A DNA stretch of 24,575 nucleotides from a virus. The stretch is taken from the IMG/VR virus record IMGVR_UViG_3300010155_000092, positions 1 to 24,575 of that record, one strand, 5' to 3'. How positions within the stretch are numbered: position 1 is the first letter of the stretch; each line of letters begins with the position of its first letter. A program made the position numbers and the translations under genes. A model generated the notes under the pieces. The model did not search any database and had not been told where the DNA came from. It saw nothing but the letters and a program-made list of their open reading frames with translations. Of this stretch, positions 7,858 through 22,084 are shown piece by piece.

Positions 7858-9888
7858 TTAAATTTCAGGAATGGAACCGAGCCCTTCTCCAAATTCTTCA
7901 ATTTGGGGCCTCAATTTTTCCATTTCAAGCTGCACTGCATTATTGAGTTTGTTTGATTGTATTCGCCTGTCGGCCTTAGCGTCAGACTGTACCCCGGTAA
8001 GCTTGGATTTAAATTTCTCAACTTCAACCCGTTTCCTGTCGGATACAGACTCTCTTTGCGCCGTCTGCAAGTCTCCCTGCAATTCTTTGTTTTGTTCGGT
8101 AAGCTGCTGGACTTGTCCCTGCAGCTGCTGAATCTCACCCATTCTCTGAATAAGACCTTCCTTGTCAAAAATTTCCGGATTCTTCTTTATCACTTCAACC
8201 CTGTCTATCAATCCCATTTGGTATGCCTCCGCATAAACTTGATACTCAGTCCACTTACTGGTCGGCAACGTGGAACCCGGCTCTATGCTGACATCATGCT
8301 GTCCAATGAGATGTCTATCCTTTTGAATATCCATGACGGTCTCACTGTAGTCGTCGTAGTAGTTTGCCATAACTTCATTGACGTTATTGTTGGCCTGCAC
8401 CAGCCTAAAAATCTTTTTAAACGTATAATGTCCCTTGGAAAGACCATAAACGACCTGACCAAGTTTTCTAAGACTTAATTCTATATCTCTCAATTTTGAT
8501 TTGGGACGTTCAGCCCCCTGAGCCAACATCCTTTCGGTTCCCCTTACCGTATCAGGAGCCTTTTCGGCAAATCCGTGCATCAACTCCGGAAGCCCAAACG
8601 TAAAATCTATGTAGAACTCGCATGATTGAATCAACTTGTAGAATTCACCGGCCAATGGAGTCGGAGCCGGAAAATGAGGCTCTCCCTGAGAACTATCGAC
8701 TTCTATGACGGCATTTGGATTTGACCAATCCTGCTCGAGTTGACTCAAATCGTCGACACTGCCTATTGGAACAATTAATTTCAGACCCGCAGAAGCCTGA
8801 GCATGAGACAATGCCAGAGACCACAATTTGTTTAACAGTCTCTGCATGGGTCTCGCCCTAGATATGTCCGACCTCGGATAGGGAGTACCACTGTAAATAT
8901 TGGGCAATGGTACTATTGGGTATATATCAGTATTGAGAACCGCTTCATACAAAACGATTTCTCCAACGGATGCCACTACCGCAACACGGGTCTGCAAAAT
9001 TTCTTGGAACTGTATCAATCCCTTTTCGAAAACTTCGGGATTTTCTTCAAGAAACTTATGAAATTCCTCTTCATTCAATATCATCTCTTCCTGACTCTGG
9101 GCATCGACAATCTGATAAAAAGGAATTTTAGTCTTATAAAATCTTTCCAGTACCTGATATTTTTCCTGATGAGTAGTCTCCAAATCCTTGGCCTCGGCAG
9201 GAGTCCAAGTCTTTTGCTGATTGCTGTTTTGAGATGAAGGATAATCCTCGTCATCACTATAACCTGAAATATTTTTTAAAATTTCAGTTACTTCACCAGT
9301 TTCTTCGTCTACCTGAGGCCCAAGTTCAGGATATATACTTAAAATTTGATCTTTGGTAAGTATAGTCGATAATACTATATTTGAGGCATCATTGAAATAC
9401 CTGTCCCTACTGGAAGACGGAACGTATACCCTAAACGGATTGACGCTCGTAAACTTAACTTCTCCTTTTCCAAAATCCGAATCGGCATCGATATAAGCAT
9501 ACAAATAACCCAATCCGGAAGTACTATGATCGTGAATGGCCTCCTTCAACTGTGAATTGCCATCGGATATTTCCCAAACGTAGCTTATTATGACACGCCA
9601 CATCTTGGCCATCTTAACGTCGGAATCTTCTCTGGGTATTACCGTAAACGCCGGAGCGGAAGAAGTCAACATTGCCTTCAACTTCTCTACGGCGGGGCCA
9701 CATCTGTCCATAGGAACCGCAGCCTGATTGCGACTTTCCAGCTCATCAACTTCATTACTACTGAAATGATTGCCGTAAAAAAAGTCTATGTCGTTACGGG
9801 CCTCGGTATCCCAATCGGAGCGAGCGTCCCTATAACGCCTATAAAGCTCCCTATTGGTCTTAGCTCTTGGGTCTTCCTGTATTTGCAT
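7858..9888 (-). CDS. Portal protein, P22-like
   Basis: The 676-residue product follows the terminase gene and has the length usual for P22-type portals. It forms the dodecameric ring through which DNA enters and leaves the head. The N-terminus (YRRYRDARSDWDTEARNDID, then FFYGNHFSSNEVDELESRNQ) and the following VPMDRCGPAVEKLKAML are typical of portal clip and wing regions in this group. The segment TPYPRSDISRARPMQRLLNK is also characteristic. Residues about 590-650 form a Gln/Glu-rich coiled coil that could be the barrel. No ribosome site precedes the ATG, and a good promoter ends only about a dozen bases upstream. Confidence 0.88.
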   Translation of the reverse strand: MQIQEDPRAKTNRELYRRYRDARSDWDTEARNDIDFFYGNHFSSNEVDELESRNQAAVPMDRCGPAVEKLKAMLTSSAPAFTVIPREDSDVKMAKMWRVIISYVWEISDGNSQLKEAIHDHSTSGLGYLYAYIDADSDFGKGEVKFTSVNPFRVYVPSSSRDRYFNDASNIVLSTILTKDQILSIYPELGPQVDEETGEVTEILKNISGYSDDEDYPSSQNSNQQKTWTPAEAKDLETTHQEKYQVLERFYKTKIPFYQIVDAQSQEEMILNEEEFHKFLEENPEVFEKGLIQFQEILQTRVAVVASVGEIVLYEAVLNTDIYPIVPLPNIYSGTPYPRSDISRARPMQRLLNKLWSLALSHAQASAGLKLIVPIGSVDDLSQLEQDWSNPNAVIEVDSSQGEPHFPAPTPLAGEFYKLIQSCEFYIDFTFGLPELMHGFAEKAPDTVRGTERMLAQGAERPKSKLRDIELSLRKLGQVVYGLSKGHYTFKKIFRLVQANNNVNEVMANYYDDYSETVMDIQKDRHLIGQHDVSIEPGSTLPTSKWTEYQVYAEAYQMGLIDRVEVIKKNPEIFDKEGLIQRMGEIQQLQGQVQQLTEQNKELQGDLQTAQRESVSDRKRVEVEKFKSKLTGVQSDAKADRRIQSNKLNNAVQLEMEKLRPQIEEFGEGLGSIPEI

Positions 9889-10145: not shown

Positions 10146-11557
10146 GGCCGGTCTTCGTACAATTTCTTGGAATTAACTATAGGGCCCAGCGAAGTTTCCA
10201 ATCTGTCTTCCTTTTTAATTCCGGCGGGAGGTCTCACTCCCTTGAACATCCCCGGTATCAACCTCCTGTCCTTTACGGCAATTCTCGTAACCATATCCCT
10301 GACCATTTCCTGAGCGGCAACGGTTTCTATAGTCACCCTTTTTACGGGACTGTACTTCTTGGCAAGTTCAACTATCTTTTCCGGCATGTCGAAAGTAGGT
10401 ATCCGTTCATGGAAATATTCCAACAGATATCGATTCTTGTTCTTATCGATCCCAATAACCACTATTACCTGAAAATCCGATTTCTTTGTGGCAGTGGCTG
10501 CAACGTCCACTCCGATATACACGTTTATGGGAATGAAGTCTCCGTCCTTATCCTCAAGATAACAGAATTTGTTTCTGGACACAAAAGTATGATTGTGTTT
10601 TAATATCCTATCTATCTTGAATGAAGCATCGGAAATGTCTCTGGCGTCGTTCATATACTCTTGAGCATATTTGTTGACCATTCCTGCTTCAATAAATTCT
10701 TTTTTCTTCGTCTCCAGTTTTTTAAGAGGGAATTGTTGAGGCCACAACGGTTTGTCGTTTTCGATGGCCCTGTAGAAAGTCACGTCCCAAGGATATTCCC
10801 TTCCGTGTTTCTCAGCATCCCTATATCCATCAACCACCATTTGCAGAAAACTGTCGTAATGCACGATTGTCCCGGCCAACCATATCCATCCTTCCCTACC
10901 GGGAGATTCCTCCAAGGCGGGAAATACGGTAGATACGATCCATTTCTTGATCTCGTCTCTCCTTTCTGGAGTCTTCGTATTCAGTTCAGATTCGAAATCG
11001 TCCAAAATGATGCCGGTGTACCTAACGTCGATTTCAGTTCTACCCCTAAGACGCTGACTGGTTCCCTTGGCAATGATCCTGTCTCCCTTGGCAGAAACGA
11101 TATCCTTCTCAGTCCATCTTTTTCCTACGGCATCTCCGGCCAAATTGCCAAAATAATATCTTATCTTATCATTATACTCGAAATGAGACTTAAGATACTT
11201 GATGTGATCGATGGCCTGTCCCTGTTCTTCGGCAACCCATGCCGTAAACAGCCTATCTCCCTGAGGAGAGAACAGCATCTTATGCATAACTGCCGCTTTG
11301 GCAAGTATCGATTTCCCGAAACCTCTTGGAAGTATGTTGCAGATTCTGGCTGCAGGTTTGGTGGACATCAGCTTTTCGGCAACTTCATAGTGAAACTTTG
11401 GAGAAGAGCTTTTATCTAGAAAATCCTTAGGAAGAAATGCTCTTCCGAAATAAAGCAAGTCCTTAAACGATTGTTTTAGAACCTCGTCGTTTATCTTTGA
11501 TTGGGATGGAGGAGGAATTATATTGAATGCATCGGCTTCCTTACTACGATTCGCCAT
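10142..11557 (-). CDS. terL: Terminase large subunit (ATPase and most of nuclease)
   Basis: The large terminase is the motor that translocates and cuts phage DNA. I start it at ATG 11557, six bases after GGAGGAG (11570-11564), and not at the longer open frame that begins inside the upstream gene; this gives 471 residues. Walker A is PRGFGKS at 77-83, Walker B is IILDDFE at 183-189, and WLAGT near 226-230 fits the coupling motif. The nuclease domain shows the first acid at D351 (GVDVAATA) and the second at E411 (TIETVAAQ). The third acidic motif is absent; the frame stops at EDRP and the motif appears in the next, overlapping frame. As read, this protein alone would lack part of its nuclease site. 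Confidence 0.88.
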   Translation of the reverse strand: MANRSKEADAFNIIPPPSQSKINDEVLKQSFKDLLYFGRAFLPKDFLDKSSSPKFHYEVAEKLMSTKPAARICNILPRGFGKSILAKAAVMHKMLFSPQGDRLFTAWVAEEQGQAIDHIKYLKSHFEYNDKIRYYFGNLAGDAVGKRWTEKDIVSAKGDRIIAKGTSQRLRGRTEIDVRYTGIILDDFESELNTKTPERRDEIKKWIVSTVFPALEESPGREGWIWLAGTIVHYDSFLQMVVDGYRDAEKHGREYPWDVTFYRAIENDKPLWPQQFPLKKLETKKKEFIEAGMVNKYAQEYMNDARDISDASFKIDRILKHNHTFVSRNKFCYLEDKDGDFIPINVYIGVDVAATATKKSDFQVIVVIGIDKNKNRYLLEYFHERIPTFDMPEKIVELAKKYSPVKRVTIETVAAQEMVRDMVTRIAVKDRRLIPGMFKGVRPPAGIKKEDRLETSLGPIVNSKKLYEDRP

Positions 11558-15037: not shown

Positions 15038-15076
15038 AAACACCAAAGATTTAAACAACAACAAAAGAGACACCAA

Positions 15077-16563: not shown

Positions 16564-16568
16564 TGCAA

Positions 16569-16730
16569 ATGAAACTTGGGCTGGTATCGGTGGCACGTGC
16601 ATGTCAAGCATGACTTGGCGTTGTAACTATCCGCACCAGCCTTCGTTTCAATCCCTAAAGATTTAGACTTTAGTGCCGATTCGTGGAATTGGAGGTATGA
16701 AACCAACGGAGCGTTGGGGTCGGCACGTTA
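16569..16730 (+). ncRNA. Candidate structured RNA upstream of the AAA+ gene
   Basis: The 185-base gap has no convincing ORF but several stems. TGAAAC (16570-16575) pairs with GTTTCA (16645-16650), and GGCTGGT (16579-16585) with ACCAGCC (16635-16641), enclosing GTCAAG/CTTGGC (16603-16619). Next comes CTAAAG/CTTTAG (16655-16673). Last is a perfect 7-bp helix GTGCCGA (16673-16679)/TCGGCAC (16720-16726) enclosing CCAAC/GTTGG (16703-16717). It is too short inside the last helix to be a tRNA. It may be an independent small RNA or a leader that controls the ATPase gene. Confidence 0.4.
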
Positions 16731-16748
16731 AAAAAAAGGAAGTGAAAC

Positions 16749-18860
16749 ATGCCGAACAAGCAAAGTACCGATCCTCGGGAAATGCCCAACTGGACGCTTG
16801 AAGTCCCAGAACTACACCAAAGGCTCAACGACAGAGGTTATATCTGCAGTGAAGAGTTTGCGGCAAAAGTTCTGACTTCAATAAACAGTAAGCCGATGGG
16901 CGGGGCGTTTCTTTATGGAATGGCAGGGACTGGAAAGTCCTATTTGCCTCAAATACTTGCTCAAGTGTTGAATCGGCCTCTGTACGTACACCAATGCACT
17001 CAAGGCACTCGCGAAGAAGATTTGCTCGTGAAACTCATGCCGTCGGAGAATACTACCTCCGGCGTCAAGGTATCAAAGGGCAAATTGTTTCGTGCTGCCT
17101 GTGAATCACGAAAGAAGCCAGTAATATTGATGCTCGACGAATGGGATAAAACCAGACCGAGCGTCGATGGTTTCTTTTTGGATTTTCTGCAATATGGAAG
17201 GCTTTCGATCCCCGGTGTCGAAGGAGGAGAGGTATATGCCGAAATGGATAATCTCACCATCTTCATAACCGCCAACGACGAACGCGAATTTCACGAAGCT
17301 CTCTTGAGACGCTTTCCGATGATTCATGTAGACCCGATGTCGGCATCGGATGTAGTGAAGGCCTTGAATATCACTCATTCCAATCACAGCTATCTTCCTC
17401 AGATGCTGGATTTGTATTTGCGTAGTGTGGCGGCAGCAATGCCGAAACCTGCAACAATACAGGAACTCCGGCAGTTGATGGATGCCATCACTACTTTGGG
17501 GAGCAATGCCGATTGGAACGATTTGGTGTATCAGTATGTCACTAAAACGCCAGAAAACCATGAAATGCTGAGCAATCAGCGACAGGTTGAAGGAGTCGAT
17601 GTCAGGCGAGCGGCAAAAATAGATGCCGAAGGATATGGAGTTGATGAAGTAATCAAAAAAAGAAACTCCAAAAATCCTGAAATGCCCAGACTTACCGAAC
17701 TGCTTCAGTTCAACGAGTCTTTCAAGAAGTCAGTTGAAGTGCCTGAGAATGCCTCTGCAGTAATTAAGAGAAGTTCACAGGCCGACAGCATAGTCATGCG
17801 TAGTCATCTTGACAGCGAAGACCCTGAAACTCCAGCCTTTTCGGAATGGGGAGTAATAACGGAGCACTATAATTTTCTACTTGAAGATTTTGCGTCTACC
17901 GATATTGCAGTTCTTCTGAAAAGTGGAGAATTTGAAGGATGCGACGGAGAAATAAAAATCTCCGACAAATATGTCACTCGCAAAGAGATCAACAGAATGA
18001 TTGCCGGGAAGTGGTACGTTCACAAAAGAGACAAGCACGAATTAATTGCCAGAAGGCATGTCGGAAGAAACGGAAATTATGCCGATTTGAGATACAGGGA
18101 AGAAAGCGGTTTGGAAATAGTCGCTCCCATAGGACTCACTCCGCAGCAAATGGCATCTCTTTTTAAGATGAACAAAAACGAAAACCTCGTTTATTCGTAC
18201 ACTCTCGACGATGCTTCAGGTGATTTTCTTCTAAACATCGGATCAGACAAATCTTCGAATGTTGCCGTGTGCGACATTTTTTCCAATGTTGCTTCAGGAA
18301 CATACAGTTTAGGCAACAGTTTGTTGAAAAGCATGGAAAATCATGAAGGATTTTGTCGGATGATGAAGCCTTTGGAGCACTGTAACTACGTTGATTTCGA
18401 AGGCATGGAAAGCCTGTTGAATGGTCACACTGTTGCAAAATCAAAGAGTGTAGAAGACGGGCTGTTGATTACGGCTACAAACATGCGTCTCAGGTTCTAC
18501 GATTACAATGGAACCAGCCCATATGCTGCGTTTTTGAAAATCGACGGAGCCGTAAACGGATTGGTGATGAAAACGATAGTGGGATGGTTTCGCAATCCCA
18601 TACCGGTGTACAGATGCTTCAAACACTGTGGCGACATAAGCGACAAACTTCAGAAATGCGGATGGAAAGTAAATAGTAAGAACAGCAAAGTGTTCGTGCG
18701 AAACGGCATTTATGCCAGAATATCGTATGATCACGTAATGTTTGCGGCATTTCTCAGAAGCGATGAACAGTTGAGCTCGTCATCACTTTCACTATCTATG
18801 AAATCAAAGATAAAGAGGATAGAATCACTTGAAAAAGCATTCAAGTCACAAGACTCTTAA
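16749..18860 (+). CDS. MoxR-like AAA+ ATPase with unknown C-terminal half (703 aa)
   Basis: Residues 1-260 are a MoxR/CobS-type AAA+ domain. Walker A is GMAGTGKS (57-64), Walker B is VILMLDE (125-131), sensor 1 is ITAND with N176, and the arginine finger is in LLRRFP (185-190). Such ATPases act as ring-shaped remodellers and usually work with a vWA partner, here encoded by the next gene (32-base overlap). Residues 300-703 match nothing I recognise and make the protein about twice the usual MoxR length. That region carries mixed alpha/beta segments and ends with a Ser-rich basic tail. The start has only AAGGAAG at about six bases. The function may be metal insertion, protein remodelling or defence-related. 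Confidence 0.8.
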   Translation: MPNKQSTDPREMPNWTLEVPELHQRLNDRGYICSEEFAAKVLTSINSKPMGGAFLYGMAGTGKSYLPQILAQVLNRPLYVHQCTQGTREEDLLVKLMPSENTTSGVKVSKGKLFRAACESRKKPVILMLDEWDKTRPSVDGFFLDFLQYGRLSIPGVEGGEVYAEMDNLTIFITANDEREFHEALLRRFPMIHVDPMSASDVVKALNITHSNHSYLPQMLDLYLRSVAAAMPKPATIQELRQLMDAITTLGSNADWNDLVYQYVTKTPENHEMLSNQRQVEGVDVRRAAKIDAEGYGVDEVIKKRNSKNPEMPRLTELLQFNESFKKSVEVPENASAVIKRSSQADSIVMRSHLDSEDPETPAFSEWGVITEHYNFLLEDFASTDIAVLLKSGEFEGCDGEIKISDKYVTRKEINRMIAGKWYVHKRDKHELIARRHVGRNGNYADLRYREESGLEIVAPIGLTPQQMASLFKMNKNENLVYSYTLDDASGDFLLNIGSDKSSNVAVCDIFSNVASGTYSLGNSLLKSMENHEGFCRMMKPLEHCNYVDFEGMESLLNGHTVAKSKSVEDGLLITATNMRLRFYDYNGTSPYAAFLKIDGAVNGLVMKTIVGWFRNPIPVYRCFKHCGDISDKLQKCGWKVNSKNSKVFVRNGIYARISYDHVMFAAFLRSDEQLSSSSLSLSMKSKIKRIESLEKAFKSQDS

Positions 18861-19869
18861 TTTTGGATGGCGTGATTTTTCGTCGCCCGAGATAAAATCA
18901 GAAATCAACTCGGCGAAGGTGATATCGTGCAAAAAGAAAATCAAAACGAAGATCACGCCTATTTCTAATGTAGTGAAAAACAAGTCGGGGGGCATCAAGC
19001 TCCCCGGCTTGAGCAAGTTTCACAACAATATTTCAAAAATTGCAAAAAAATTCAGTAACAACAATAAATCGTCTTTTCGATCCGTTGAAGCAGTTTATAG
19101 TGGAGCCTATTCTTTAGCCGGACTTGACATGAAGAATAGAGATGTGGCGAATAAAGTACACAAATTCGACGAGGCATACGGAATGTCTCGCATAAACATG
19201 AACCCGGCAATGCCCGGCAAATACGACCTGAAATCGGTGAGAGACAGAAGAATTGCAGCAAATTTTGCAAGAGTGATGTCAAAAATTGCAGAGGACAATG
19301 TTGGAGGAGAGATTGAAGGCGACGATTTTTGGGACGTCAACAGGATAATGTCCCGCAAGATCAGTAGAGAATCCATACTAAAATGTCGCATGTCGAGAGA
19401 AAAACGCAGAATAGTTCTGCTTTTGGACAGCAGTCCCTCATGTAGTGATTATTCGAACTTTTACAGCAAAATGGCCGTAGTTGCGGCCGAATATGGAGAC
19501 GTTGAAATGTATGATGCACCCAATGGTCACATAGTGCATCGATGGAGTCTCAGAAAAAAACGATTTGAAAGATTTTTGACTCCGCAGGACATACTTGCCG
19601 GAGTTTCTCAATGGAGTTTGTTCAGAAACAGGGTAGTCGTAATATTCAGCGACTATGATGCCGCCGGCATCTCCTTAAAAAACACCATTCACAATAAAGT
19701 TTATTATTTTTGCACTGAATATGGGGCAGATCATGCGACAAGTCACATTTACAATACTGCACGTAGAATAACAAAGAATATGAGTTCAGTCAATACAAAG
19801 AATTTGGTTGTCTACTCAGGCATCACGAATACAAGACAGTTTGCCAAAACGGCAAAGAAAATGAAATAA
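18829..19869 (+). CDS. vWA-domain protein, partner of the AAA+ ATPase (346 aa)
   Basis: A TTG at 18829 starts the frame, with GAGGA about nine bases upstream and a 32-base overlap with the ATPase gene. Residues 1-85 are Lys/Ser-rich and likely flexible. From about 193 the sequence IVLLLDSSPSCSDYSNFYS is a vWA strand with a metal-ion adhesion site (DxSxS: D200, S202, S204). VVVIFSDYDA (270-279) is the strand carrying the later acidic residue. MoxR ATPases commonly pair with vWA proteins, as in RavA-ViaA and CobS-CobT, so the pair probably forms one machine. Similarity to CobT is only architectural; no cobalamin role is claimed. Confidence 0.72.
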   Translation: MKKHSSHKTLNFGWRDFSSPEIKSEINSAKVISCKKKIKTKITPISNVVKNKSGGIKLPGLSKFHNNISKIAKKFSNNNKSSFRSVEAVYSGAYSLAGLDMKNRDVANKVHKFDEAYGMSRINMNPAMPGKYDLKSVRDRRIAANFARVMSKIAEDNVGGEIEGDDFWDVNRIMSRKISRESILKCRMSREKRRIVLLLDSSPSCSDYSNFYSKMAVVAAEYGDVEMYDAPNGHIVHRWSLRKKRFERFLTPQDILAGVSQWSLFRNRVVVIFSDYDAAGISLKNTIHNKVYYFCTEYGADHATSHIYNTARRITKNMSSVNTKNLVVYSGITNTRQFAKTAKKMK

Positions 19870-19890
19870 CCGAAAAAAGGAGAGCACAAA

Positions 19891-20427
19891 ATGGTTAAAA
19901 AACGAAAATTCATCACTCCTTGCGATGCACAGTTGGGAGAATCCCAAACTGAGAGCGTAAACAGGATGAATGCCTTGTCTATGGCCGTAGATTGCGAATT
20001 AATTTCAAGCAATTTTAAAAGCACTGAGGAGAAATATGATGCATTTGTGAAATATTTTTCCGAAAGACCCGGCATATGGGATGATGATGCCTCAAACGAA
20101 AAAGAAATGGCTCGAAGAATGACGATAGTGTCCATTCTTATAAATGGAATTCACAAGGTCTCTGAAATGCTGGGGCTCGATGAAGGCGAGATAAAAATTC
20201 TTGCCGAATGGGGTTCGGAAAAAAGAGAAGAAAAGCTTGGAATCGGAGTGAGTGCGGATGTGGGAGAGCAAAAAACGGCTCTTATCAGAAGACTGTTCAC
20301 ATCGTTTGTAGACCTCAGCGAAATGGGGTATTCCGAAAGAGATTCGAAAGAAGTAGAGCTGGACGAAGAGATGACATCAGAGCTCAGTCGCCTCGAATGG
20401 GACAAAAAATCGAGGGGAGAAGCTTAA
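19891..20427 (+). CDS. Unknown third protein of the AAA+/vWA module (178 aa)
   Basis: AAAGGAG lies seven bases before the ATG, 21 bases after the vWA gene, so it belongs to the same operon. The 178-residue product is acidic and helical (EEKYDAFVKYFSERPGIWDD, MTIVSILINGIHKVSEMLGL and later ALIRRLFTSFVDLSEMGY), with a strongly charged C-terminus. It contains no enzyme motif. Being last in the module and directly before a structured gap, it is likely an accessory or substrate-adaptor subunit; this is inferred from position only. Confidence 0.65.
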   Translation: MVKKRKFITPCDAQLGESQTESVNRMNALSMAVDCELISSNFKSTEEKYDAFVKYFSERPGIWDDDASNEKEMARRMTIVSILINGIHKVSEMLGLDEGEIKILAEWGSEKREEKLGIGVSADVGEQKTALIRRLFTSFVDLSEMGYSERDSKEVELDEEMTSELSRLEWDKKSRGEA

Positions 20428-20433
20428 AAATAC

Positions 20434-20484
20434 AGAGCTTGGGGAGTGGGTTTCGTCTCTTTTCCTCCCGCTCCCAACCCCTCT
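20434..20484 (+). terminator. GC-rich hairpin after the AAA+/vWA module
   Basis: GGGAGTGGG (20442-20450) pairs with CCCGCTCCC (20467-20475), nine pairs with one G-U, and outer AGAG/CTCT can add four more around small bulges. It directly follows the 178-residue gene. There is no T-run after the stem, so it may stabilise the transcript 3' end or slow polymerase more than terminate it. Confidence 0.5.
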
Positions 20485-20493
20485 AAATGAATG

Positions 20494-20613
20494 TTATTTG
20501 GGCAGATGGCTTAATAAAGTACACGTGCCTTCCATGTCTGAAATTGAAGTACAAGAGAGATCGGATATAACATGAGGCTGCATAACGTAGCATTGCTCTC
20601 ACTGCCCAAATAA
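20494..20613 (+). ncRNA. Candidate structured RNA closed by a 12-bp helix
   Basis: TTATTTGGGCAG (20494-20505) and CTGCCCAAATAA (20602-20613) are perfectly complementary, 120 bases end to end. Inside, ACGTG/CATGT (20523-20537) forms a hairpin, and GCTGC/GTAGC (20577-20591) and GAGAG/CTCTC add further stems, so the RNA could fold as a multi-branched structure. A 27-codon frame at 20487-20570 overlaps it but has no ribosome site. The next gene's AAAGGAAAG site lies just 3' of the closing helix, so it could act as a leader controlling that gene or as a free small RNA. Confidence 0.45.
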
Positions 20614-20632
20614 AATAAAAGGAAAGTAAATC

Positions 20633-20848
20633 ATGCTGCAAATAAAACTATCGGAAATTTTGAGCGACAGTCAAATAAAAAAAGTCATCAAAATTCTAAA
20701 AACAAATAAGAATGAAGATAGGTTATCAAGCTTAAAGTCTTACTTTACGGAGATTTCTGATGATTTGAAAAAAAAAGGAATACATCACGAATACTTGGCT
20801 TGGGTAATTTATGCAAGATCGGAGGAAATAATTAAGCGTGAACTTTAA
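20633..20848 (+). CDS. Small helical unknown protein (71 aa)
   Basis: The product starts behind AAAGGAAAG and is helical throughout (SEILSDSQIKKVIKILKTNK, then DRLSSLKSYFTEISDDLKKK and EYLAWVIYARSEEIIKREL). It overlaps the next gene by 11 bases. It contains no cysteines or catalytic motif. It follows the structured RNA candidate directly. No family recognised. Confidence 0.6.
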   Translation: MLQIKLSEILSDSQIKKVIKILKTNKNEDRLSSLKSYFTEISDDLKKKGIHHEYLAWVIYARSEEIIKREL

Positions 20849-21134
20849 AGATTTTAAACTTAAAAAGGTCTGTAATTTAGGCGACAGCGTCTTCTGCGAC
20901 GGATGCAACGGCCCTTATGGGGATGAAGTAAACGGAGGCGTGATCATAGGTGGTTACGCATACTGTGGAGAATGCTGTAAAGGATATGGATACGACAAGG
21001 ACGAATACGAATATGCCGATGAAATCGAAGAAATTATGGACAAAGGCAAGACGTTCAAGGAGAACGTTCTTGATTACAGAAAACGTAAAACTGGTTCAAG
21101 TGACGGCATTATGCAAATTTTCACTGTGGATTAG
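20838..21134 (+). CDS. Small Cys-rich, zinc-binding-like protein (98 aa)
   Basis: GTG at 20838 follows GGAGG by about 12 bases and overlaps the previous stop. C20 and C23 (FCDGC) and C43, C46 and C47 (YCGECC) form two cysteine knuckles typical of a zinc ribbon, separated by a Gly-rich turn. The middle is strongly acidic and Tyr-rich (YGYDKDEYEYADEIEEIMD). A role in binding nucleic acid or a protein partner is possible. No named family recognised. Confidence 0.6.
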   Translation: MNFKDFKLKKVCNLGDSVFCDGCNGPYGDEVNGGVIIGGYAYCGECCKGYGYDKDEYEYADEIEEIMDKGKTFKENVLDYRKRKTGSSDGIMQIFTVD

Positions 21135-21948: not shown

Positions 21949-21957
21949 TAGTAAGTT

Positions 21958-22040
21958 CTCTTTAAAGAGGGCAGTATATGGCTATGGCCTTGCAAGGCTA
22001 TAGCCATATATGATATATATATTATATTATATATATATTA
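21958..22040. repeat. Palindromic, AT-rich intergenic region after the ParB-like gene
   Basis: CTCTTTAAAGAG (21958-21969) is a perfect 12-bp palindrome. Then 21975-21989 and 21996-22010 form a 15-bp stem (one G-T pair) around TTGCAA, built from TATGGCTAT/ATAGCCATA words. A TA-rich stretch follows to about 22040. The ATAGCC word also makes up the array in the divergent region. Site, operator or transcript hairpin are all possible. Confidence 0.75.
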
Positions 22041-22084
22041 CCCAAAAAAAATAAATATTTTAAAAAAAAGGTTTTTGAAACTTA

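Follow-up and report, generated by a model that had tools for sequence, protein, structure and literature searches.

A MoxR-like ATPase and a vWA protein, probably a NorQ/NorD-like remodelling machine, kept in the early-type operon of a phage lineage

Pairs of a MoxR-type AAA+ ATPase and a von Willebrand factor A (vWA) protein are widespread, and few of their targets are known. What would a phage use such a pair for, and does the pair belong to its core genes or travel as a cassette? The question is raised by the IMG/VR virus record IMGVR_UViG_3300010155_000092 (positions 1 to 24,575, the whole 24,575-base stretch analysed here and called the window). Its plus strand carries a gene for a MoxR-clade AAA+ ATPase of 703 amino acids (aa) (16749-18860; Pfam AAA_5, 1.1e-13), a CoxE/NorD-like vWA gene of 346 aa (18829-19869), assigned by a Pfam VWA_CoxE match below the curated cut-off (4.5e-5), by alignments and by its C-termini, and a gene for a third protein of 178 aa without a family match (19891-20427). 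A 185-nt gap (16564-16748), the leader of the MoxR gene, precedes the three and a 205-nt gap (20428-20632) follows them, both read on the plus strand; the gap behind the ParB-like gene measures 136 nt (21949-22084). A sequence-only reading of this stretch had given these genes, lengths, coordinates and gaps, with all of which the list of open reading frames (ORFs) agrees, and had proposed a self-contained module with RNA elements of its own. We conclude that the two large genes probably encode a NorQ/NorD-like MoxR/vWA remodelling machine of the phage, one of its early core functions, in an RNA-led operon. Pairing, synteny, the predicted fold of the ATPase core, conserved motifs and covariation among near relatives are the parts of this picture that were observed directly.

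We gathered relatives from IMG/VR by single-sequence and alignment searches. Annotation of 59 loci with hidden Markov models (HMMs) gave 35 phage contigs with both MoxR and vWA genes, three contigs of metagenome-assembled genomes (MAGs) with both, 12 loci that were cut and 9 with a distant MoxR. The vWA gene lies directly behind MoxR in 35 of the 35 phage contigs with room for it, which fall into about 28 clusters when grouped at 90% MoxR identity. This count leaves out the 12 loci that end in or just behind MoxR (L047, L050, L053, L057, L060, L062, L064, L072 and L077-L080) and the nine with the distant MoxR (L082-L090), and the MAG loci (L091-L093) were counted apart. The nine are other phage contigs whose shorter MoxR (275-287 aa where complete) has no vWA neighbour by HMM. 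In the window the vWA gene starts with a TTG at 18829, inside the ATPase gene, so that the two overlap by 32 nt (18829-18860); overlaps of 29-41 nt throughout the near clade suggest that the two genes are translationally coupled. The near clade consists of L005-L009 and L018, with MoxR 49-53% identical to that of the window; further clades are more distant. A near twin of the window differs at 11 of 3,679 positions across the three genes and at none in either gap, where about one difference would be expected.

Is the pair then a passenger or a resident? A search anchored on the terminase, and thus independent of MoxR, found 529 related IMG/VR stretches, of which we kept the best 80. Twelve of these loci extend beyond 5.2 kb towards MoxR, and 11 of the 12 contain it. 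The twelfth, L148, reaches 5.5 kb in that direction and may end too early, since in the other 11 the distance between the terminase match and the start of MoxR is 3.4-6.1 kb. Thirteen loci with 3.3-5.2 kb had no MoxR, as the distance predicts, and the other 55 were shorter. Since the 80 loci are those closest to the window (terminase at least 72% identical), this test says little about distant members. The pairwise distances of MoxR follow those of vWA (rho 0.50), and both track the distances of TerL, TerS and the PD-(D/E)XK nuclease (rho 0.36-0.50), with no more than 4 of 300 permutations reaching such values; the nuclease and TerL agree somewhat better (rho 0.61). Because vWA stands behind MoxR in every informative phage contig and MoxR in nearly every long terminase locus, the pair resembles a core early operon that one phage lineage has retained, not a mobile cassette. 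The proposed self-contained module, moving as a unit, finds no support in this fixed place in an early-type operon or in the correlations. Its expectation that the genes occur together held for MoxR and vWA, and was not borne out for the third protein, which a profile detects in 8 of the 59 loci.

The neighbours place the pair among early-type genes. The head, portal and terminase genes are on the minus strand of the window, and the plus-strand block holds MoxR, vWA, the third gene, a ParB-like gene, a PD-(D/E)XK nuclease and an exonuclease/RAD52-like protein, the last being a protein with PHROG matches called exonuclease and one phage match annotated as a RAD52-like annealing protein. The block also has genes for a single-stranded DNA-binding (SSB)-like protein and DnaB. 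On a twin contig, L095, an N6/N4 DNA methylase and a DnaB helicase lie further along the early-type block (7975-8826 and 10203-11552). This arrangement bears on whether the pair might assemble structural proteins of the phage, as has been proposed for p618/p892 of the archaeal virus ATV (Acidianus two-tailed virus). We found biochemical data for no other viral MoxR/vWA pair: p618 binds p892 and virion proteins, while p387 and p892 raise the ATPase activity of p618 (PMC4124505). Here, however, the genes share a block with ParB-like, nuclease, Rad52-like, SSB-like and DnaB genes, the head and terminase genes are on the other strand, and a virion chaperone is quite unlikely.

We then asked what kind of machine the ATPase would power. 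Its predicted architecture consists of an AAA+ core (about 28-281), a variable linker (281-330) and one or more C-terminal domains (331-703). The modelled core matches NorQ (Z 16.9, root mean square deviation (rmsd) 4.1 over 240 residues) and CbbQ (Z 16.7, rmsd 3.6 over 237 residues) better than it does dynein and Clp proteins (Z 14-15), and the viral structure matches of the ATPase are MoxR- and CobS-named phage proteins and other AAA+ proteins. Across 11 aligned sequences, the Walker A and Walker B (LDEWDK) motifs and the asparagine of sensor 1 contain invariant residues; with an arginine finger and a MoxR-like fold, the core has the features of the MoxR clade. The segment after sensor 1 reads TANDERxFxEALLRRF in the near clade, with related forms elsewhere, among the proteins that fit the search expression. 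Residues 94-115 (P98, T102, G105, V106 and G111 invariant) are, by position, a candidate for the helix-2 insert, a beta hairpin, and residues 98-109 are modelled with a pLDDT below 50.

Assignment to a named subfamily was narrower. The best PHROG of the ATPase is 249, annotated 'porphyrin biosynthesis' (5.3e-12) and corresponding to CobS; similarity to CobS over the whole protein was not found, the match being confined to residues 40-206, which align with positions 117-287 of a 380-position profile (phrog_249). The score against the MadB family (NCBIfam NF047784) was 44.2 bits, with a curated cut-off of 475. No RavA model appeared among the Pfam and NCBIfam matches, nor was RavA among the listed PDB rows, all of which were taken by the AAA+ core. 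PADLOC gave weak similarity for the ATPase, confined to AAA+ (PDC-M37B 2.5e-5, IetA 0.0013).

Such matches might point to a maturation factor of the NorQ, CoxD or CobS type that loads a metal or cofactor, as by a chelatase, into a phage or host metalloenzyme. The nearest folds (NorQ and CbbQ), the porphyrin label of the best PHROG and the weak CoxE likeness of the vWA protein would all fit this. We consider it very unlikely, as no metalloenzyme was recognised among 20 window proteins scanned by Pfam or PHROGs or among the 10 of 58 predicted twin-contig proteins scanned by Pfam, and CbbQ acts on Rubisco, so that the fold does not fix the function.

The vWA protein suggests a mechanistic link to NorQ/NorD. 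Its DxSxS motif is D200-S-S-P-S204, and the candidate residues of the metal-ion-dependent adhesion site (MIDAS), D200, S202, S204 and D275/D277, are invariant in 11 divergent vWA sequences. The 26 invariant positions of this alignment are concentrated in residues 151-205 (13 of 26; P 2e-5), a block that runs up to and through DxSxS. The window protein ends in KKMK, and a C-terminus of a hydrophobic residue followed by K or R, with at most one trailing residue, is shared by 31 of 32 proteins, the exception being L093. The count started from 37 complete proteins, 3 of them from MAGs, less the twins L043, L046, L065, L068 and L076, and represents the window by its twin L036. In the NorQD system, a VWA finger goes into the pore and NorD lacking its last two residues no longer co-purifies (PMC13036017, PMC9976466). 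The finger is given as residues 403-448 of NorD (PMC13036017) and would precede DxSxS, because the later MIDAS residues T534 and D562 (PMC9976466) are numbered after it. The agreement between the conserved vWA C-terminus and the docking site of NorD on NorQ would, by analogy, be the strongest mechanistic hint in our data, and it offers a way to ask if other MoxR/vWA pairs dock as NorQD does.

The remainder of the ATPase gave no convincing PDB match. About 420 residues lie beyond the core (28-281) that matches NorQ and CbbQ, in line with the roughly 400 extra residues of the sequence-only reading. The core (20-280) is 72-75% identical to that of the window in the near clade and 49-60% in distant sequences, and the C-terminal part (331-703) only 36-42% and 15-22%, respectively. 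The three phage relatives L067, L069 and L070 have shorter ATPases (460-534 aa) without most of it. Folded alone with 28 sequences, the C-terminal part gave a confident model (pLDDT 90, pTM 0.89). Its segments 70-140 and 263-368, numbered in the fragment, are alike in the order of strands and helices, and the model thus suggests a duplicated alpha/beta unit. The best Foldseek match of this part had an E of 0.02, and no PDB sequence matched at E up to 5. Two candidate relatives were judged below a relationship: residues 93-175 of RnlA (Z 7.2 over 75 residues, model 65-142) and putative class IV adenylate cyclases (Z 5.6-6.3 over about 75-80 residues, the Z 6.3 match covering model 286-373).

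The third protein evolves fast in the near clade and keeps a conserved C-terminal tail. Of its 19 invariant positions, 5 fall within the last nine residues (P 0.0008), and the end is GEA in 6 of 6 near-clade proteins and AEA, YEA, AxS or GQS in other clades. Shortly after the vWA gene, 34 of the 35 phage contigs have the start of an ORF of at least 40 residues, the exception (L045) being cut; this is a weak criterion. As noted, the near-clade profile (E 1e-3) finds few of these proteins, and Pfam gave no match at E up to 1. Profiles of the different clades matched each other poorly: A14 with A12 at E 1.2e-4 (41 columns, probability 55%), A13 with A15 at E 6e-4 (probability 29%), and A14 with A13 at E 0.13 (probability 0.5%). 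A tail read by the ring or by the vWA protein would explain why the end of an otherwise variable protein is conserved.

These observations can be assembled into a mechanism, in which we infer the hexamer, the docking mode, the early timing, the class of target and the roles of the third protein and the RNA. The ATPase would assemble as a hexameric ring, and ATP hydrolysis would twist the vWA protein and pull on a target bound at the MIDAS face, at the C-terminal part of the ATPase that evolves fast, or at both. The third protein would most likely be an adaptor, or a substrate specific to the machine, and its C-terminal tail would be what is recognised. The machine is probably produced early in infection as part of the core gene set of the lineage, and its target would more likely be an early-infection protein complex (of host or phage replication or transcription) than the virion. 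A lineage that keeps the pair in all of the informative contigs found (35 of 35) offers a natural test of what the ring does in infection.

A special case of this mechanism is counter-defence or host takeover, where ring and vWA protein would disassemble a host complex chosen by the C-terminal part and the third protein. The early-type position, judged from the neighbours, a conserved motor with a fast-diverging C-terminal part and the very variable third protein are what one would expect of it. It is nevertheless unlikely, since the pair is found in nearly all members tested and is not patchy, the PADLOC similarity is weak and does not go beyond AAA+, and other early genes diverge equally. 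The terminase of 11 relatives is 70-86% identical to that of the window, while the median distances are 0.67 for MoxR, about 0.74 for vWA and 0.67 for the SSB-like gene, so that the module is not alone in changing fast. That the locus represents a new class of viral machine, with a fused fast-evolving part for target recognition, an exchangeable third protein that steers the ring and is read at its C-terminal tail, an RNA leader of its own and a role in dismantling or retooling a host complex early on, seems to us improbable.

Several points weigh against the remodelling machine itself. All support for it is computational, from sequence, predicted structure and synteny, and the neighbouring genes suggest no target. 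The vWA domain is weakly recognised, scoring 23.4 bits where the cut-off of Pfam VWA_CoxE is 26.4, and no MIDAS threonine was identified in the alignment of 11 vWA sequences. The C-terminal part of the ATPase had no PDB structure match above Z 7.2 (VIA-align), and profiles of MoxR (E up to 1e-5), vWA, the third protein and the C-terminal part recovered no relevant PDB chain. The third protein is constant in place and, by sequence comparison, appears mostly not recognisable as one family across clades. Finally, neither MoxR and vWA nor one distant form of each matched an isolate phage at E 1e-5 in INPHARED, where tblastn of MoxR and vWA covered 50,697 phage records.

Does the operon carry RNA elements, as had been proposed from the folding of the two gaps? 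Both gaps fold better than dinucleotide shuffles, not extremely so: the upstream gap at -56.7 kcal/mol (z -2.00, equalled by 8 of 200 shuffles) and the downstream gap at -55.0 kcal/mol (z -2.72, 1 of 200). The upstream gap has two main predicted hairpins (16570-16650 and 16673-16726) with AAAGATTT between them (16657-16664), followed later by an A-rich spacer and the ribosome-binding site. The downstream gap has a predicted stem (20442-20450/20467-20475) and a long outer stem (20494-20505/20602-20613). An Rfam scan of the window found no family at the gathering score, and permissive thresholds gave two sub-gathering matches in the upstream gap and none in the downstream one.

Covariation among near relatives is better evidence for an RNA than folding energy. 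In the upstream gap of the near clade, hairpin P1, present in four sequences, has TCATG in its loop and then GGGGCAAAGATTT or a near variant; all 40 of 40 pairs form and four positions are changed on both sides. Of 5,000 column shuffles, 1 reached this pairing and 14 the number of pair types. Hairpin P2 lies immediately 5' of the ribosome-binding site (six sequences), with 45 of 48 cells paired, two double-change positions and slid controls 25-40% paired. Hairpin D1, in the downstream gap at the place of the window stem at 20442-20475, forms 44 of 44 pairs with three double-change positions in four near relatives, its number of pair types being reached in 2,557 of 5,000 shuffles. The P1 set holds 4 of 7 near-clade leaders (the window, L007 and L018 left out, the L018 hairpin being similar by eye) and the P2 set 6 of 7 (the window left out); the D1 set leaves out the window and L018, and L009 is cut before D1. 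Searched in viral contigs, the P1 pattern matched 4 stretches, all of them MoxR leaders, and the P2 pattern 7, namely six MoxR leaders and one stretch inside an ORF of L031, which was judged a chance match.

On the other side, each RNA set comprises only 4 to 6 sequences, and for P1 and D1 the alignment of the arms was made by hand. Double changes as in P1 were reached in 77 of 5,000 column shuffles, the covariation score of P2 in 71 of 500 and the pairing of D1 in 152 of 5,000. The window leader is by position the counterpart of the P1 and P2 hairpins and fits neither pattern, its hairpin at the P2 position having a larger loop, and L007 lacks P1. The gaps could thus be ordinary spacers or transcription signals without a special RNA, as the modest folding z-scores, the small sets with shuffles that are not negligible and the absence of the hairpins from most distant clades would suggest. 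We find this somewhat unlikely, given the compensatory changes in P1 and D1, the conserved loop of P1 and the confinement of its pattern to MoxR leaders. Moreover, no terminator-like site was found on the plus strand of either window gap, and promoter- and terminator-like counts there were not above those of shuffles. Within the near clade, then, P1 is well supported as an RNA and P2 and D1 fairly. Two further ideas were dropped: kissing of the P1 and P2 loops, seen by eye, is broken in L008, and the frame of a leader peptide from a start in the P1 loop is not kept.

Outside the near clade the leaders differ. A different predicted hairpin (CGACAA..TTGTCG-like) precedes the MoxR ribosome-binding site in L042, L047, L049, L060 and L063, and L052 has yet another at the same place. 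The mechanically measured gap before MoxR is at most 25 nt in 16 of 30 more distant or duplicate relatives. Since the RNA is supported in the near clade only, the upstream element is likely a cis-regulatory leader and not a travelling part of a module. The suggestion of RNA elements therefore survives for the near-clade gaps and does not extend to clades with another hairpin or hardly any gap. Acting in cis on the operon, the leader would probably be a protein-binding or mRNA-processing element.

How does the phage pair compare with known systems? It resembles the bacterial NorQ/NorD and CbbQ/CbbO in its AAA+ core fold, its adjacent vWA partner and a vWA C-terminus conserved at the docking place of NorD. 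It differs in being a phage core gene, in a C-terminal part of about 370 residues outside the NorQ/CbbQ matches, and in that no nitric oxide reductase or Rubisco gene was recognised nearby. Virus-borne MoxR/vWA pairs are already known from ATV, Hardycor1 and 0305phi8-36. The ATV pair, likened here by description, shares a MoxR with a further C-terminal domain (PMC4124505), but it is from an archaeal virus with p618 in the virion, whereas ours lies in an early-type operon of a tailed phage. By their descriptions, the halovirus Hardycor1 has AAA/vWA neighbours and phage 0305phi8-36 a two-subunit MoxR-type chaperonin (orf66/orf63); these descriptions mention no leader RNA or third protein. MoxR-vWA-centric ternary conflict systems (with VMAP, iSTAND, FtsH and others) likewise combine MoxR, vWA and a third gene (PMC7159879), but the phage third protein, where a VMAP system would have a component with a VMAP-C domain, is small and without a Pfam match, and the phage pair is a core gene. 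In literature mostly outside subscription journals and judged from listings, we recognised nothing on this lineage or on a phage MoxR of such build; searches on MadB/MadC gave nothing useful, and no paper was found on CobS/CobT with a phage MoxR.

A related terminase occurs in 251 phage records; among the 15 of them listed, Vibrio phage ICP2 being one, identity is 24-27%. By this sequence measure, the lineage appears far from cultured phages. A first scan of genome contigs found no relative, and a second found the three MAG contigs with a MoxR and vWA of the same family: L091, L092 and L093 (S015_6, SAR324 and Bacteroidia KatS3mg026). In L093 the vWA gene precedes MoxR. Their neighbours look chromosomal, judged from ORF starts only, and these pairs are a possible cellular source or cousin of the phage pair.

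The AAAGATTT motif of the upstream gap is over-represented in the window (12 sites against 3.3 expected, 0 of 100 shuffles as high; for example, at 15045, 15300 and 16657). Most window sites are in coding sequence, and we make no claim for it as a general early element. Sites between predicted genes number 5 of 20 in the twin G001, 4 of 18 in G002 and 0 of 21 in G003; some fall between early-type genes in G001 and G002, and none in G003. Behind the downstream gap, at 20838-21134, the window encodes a 98-aa protein with two CxxC-type pairs, which is about 60% identical over 86 residues in the distant relative L029, where MoxR is 43% identical.

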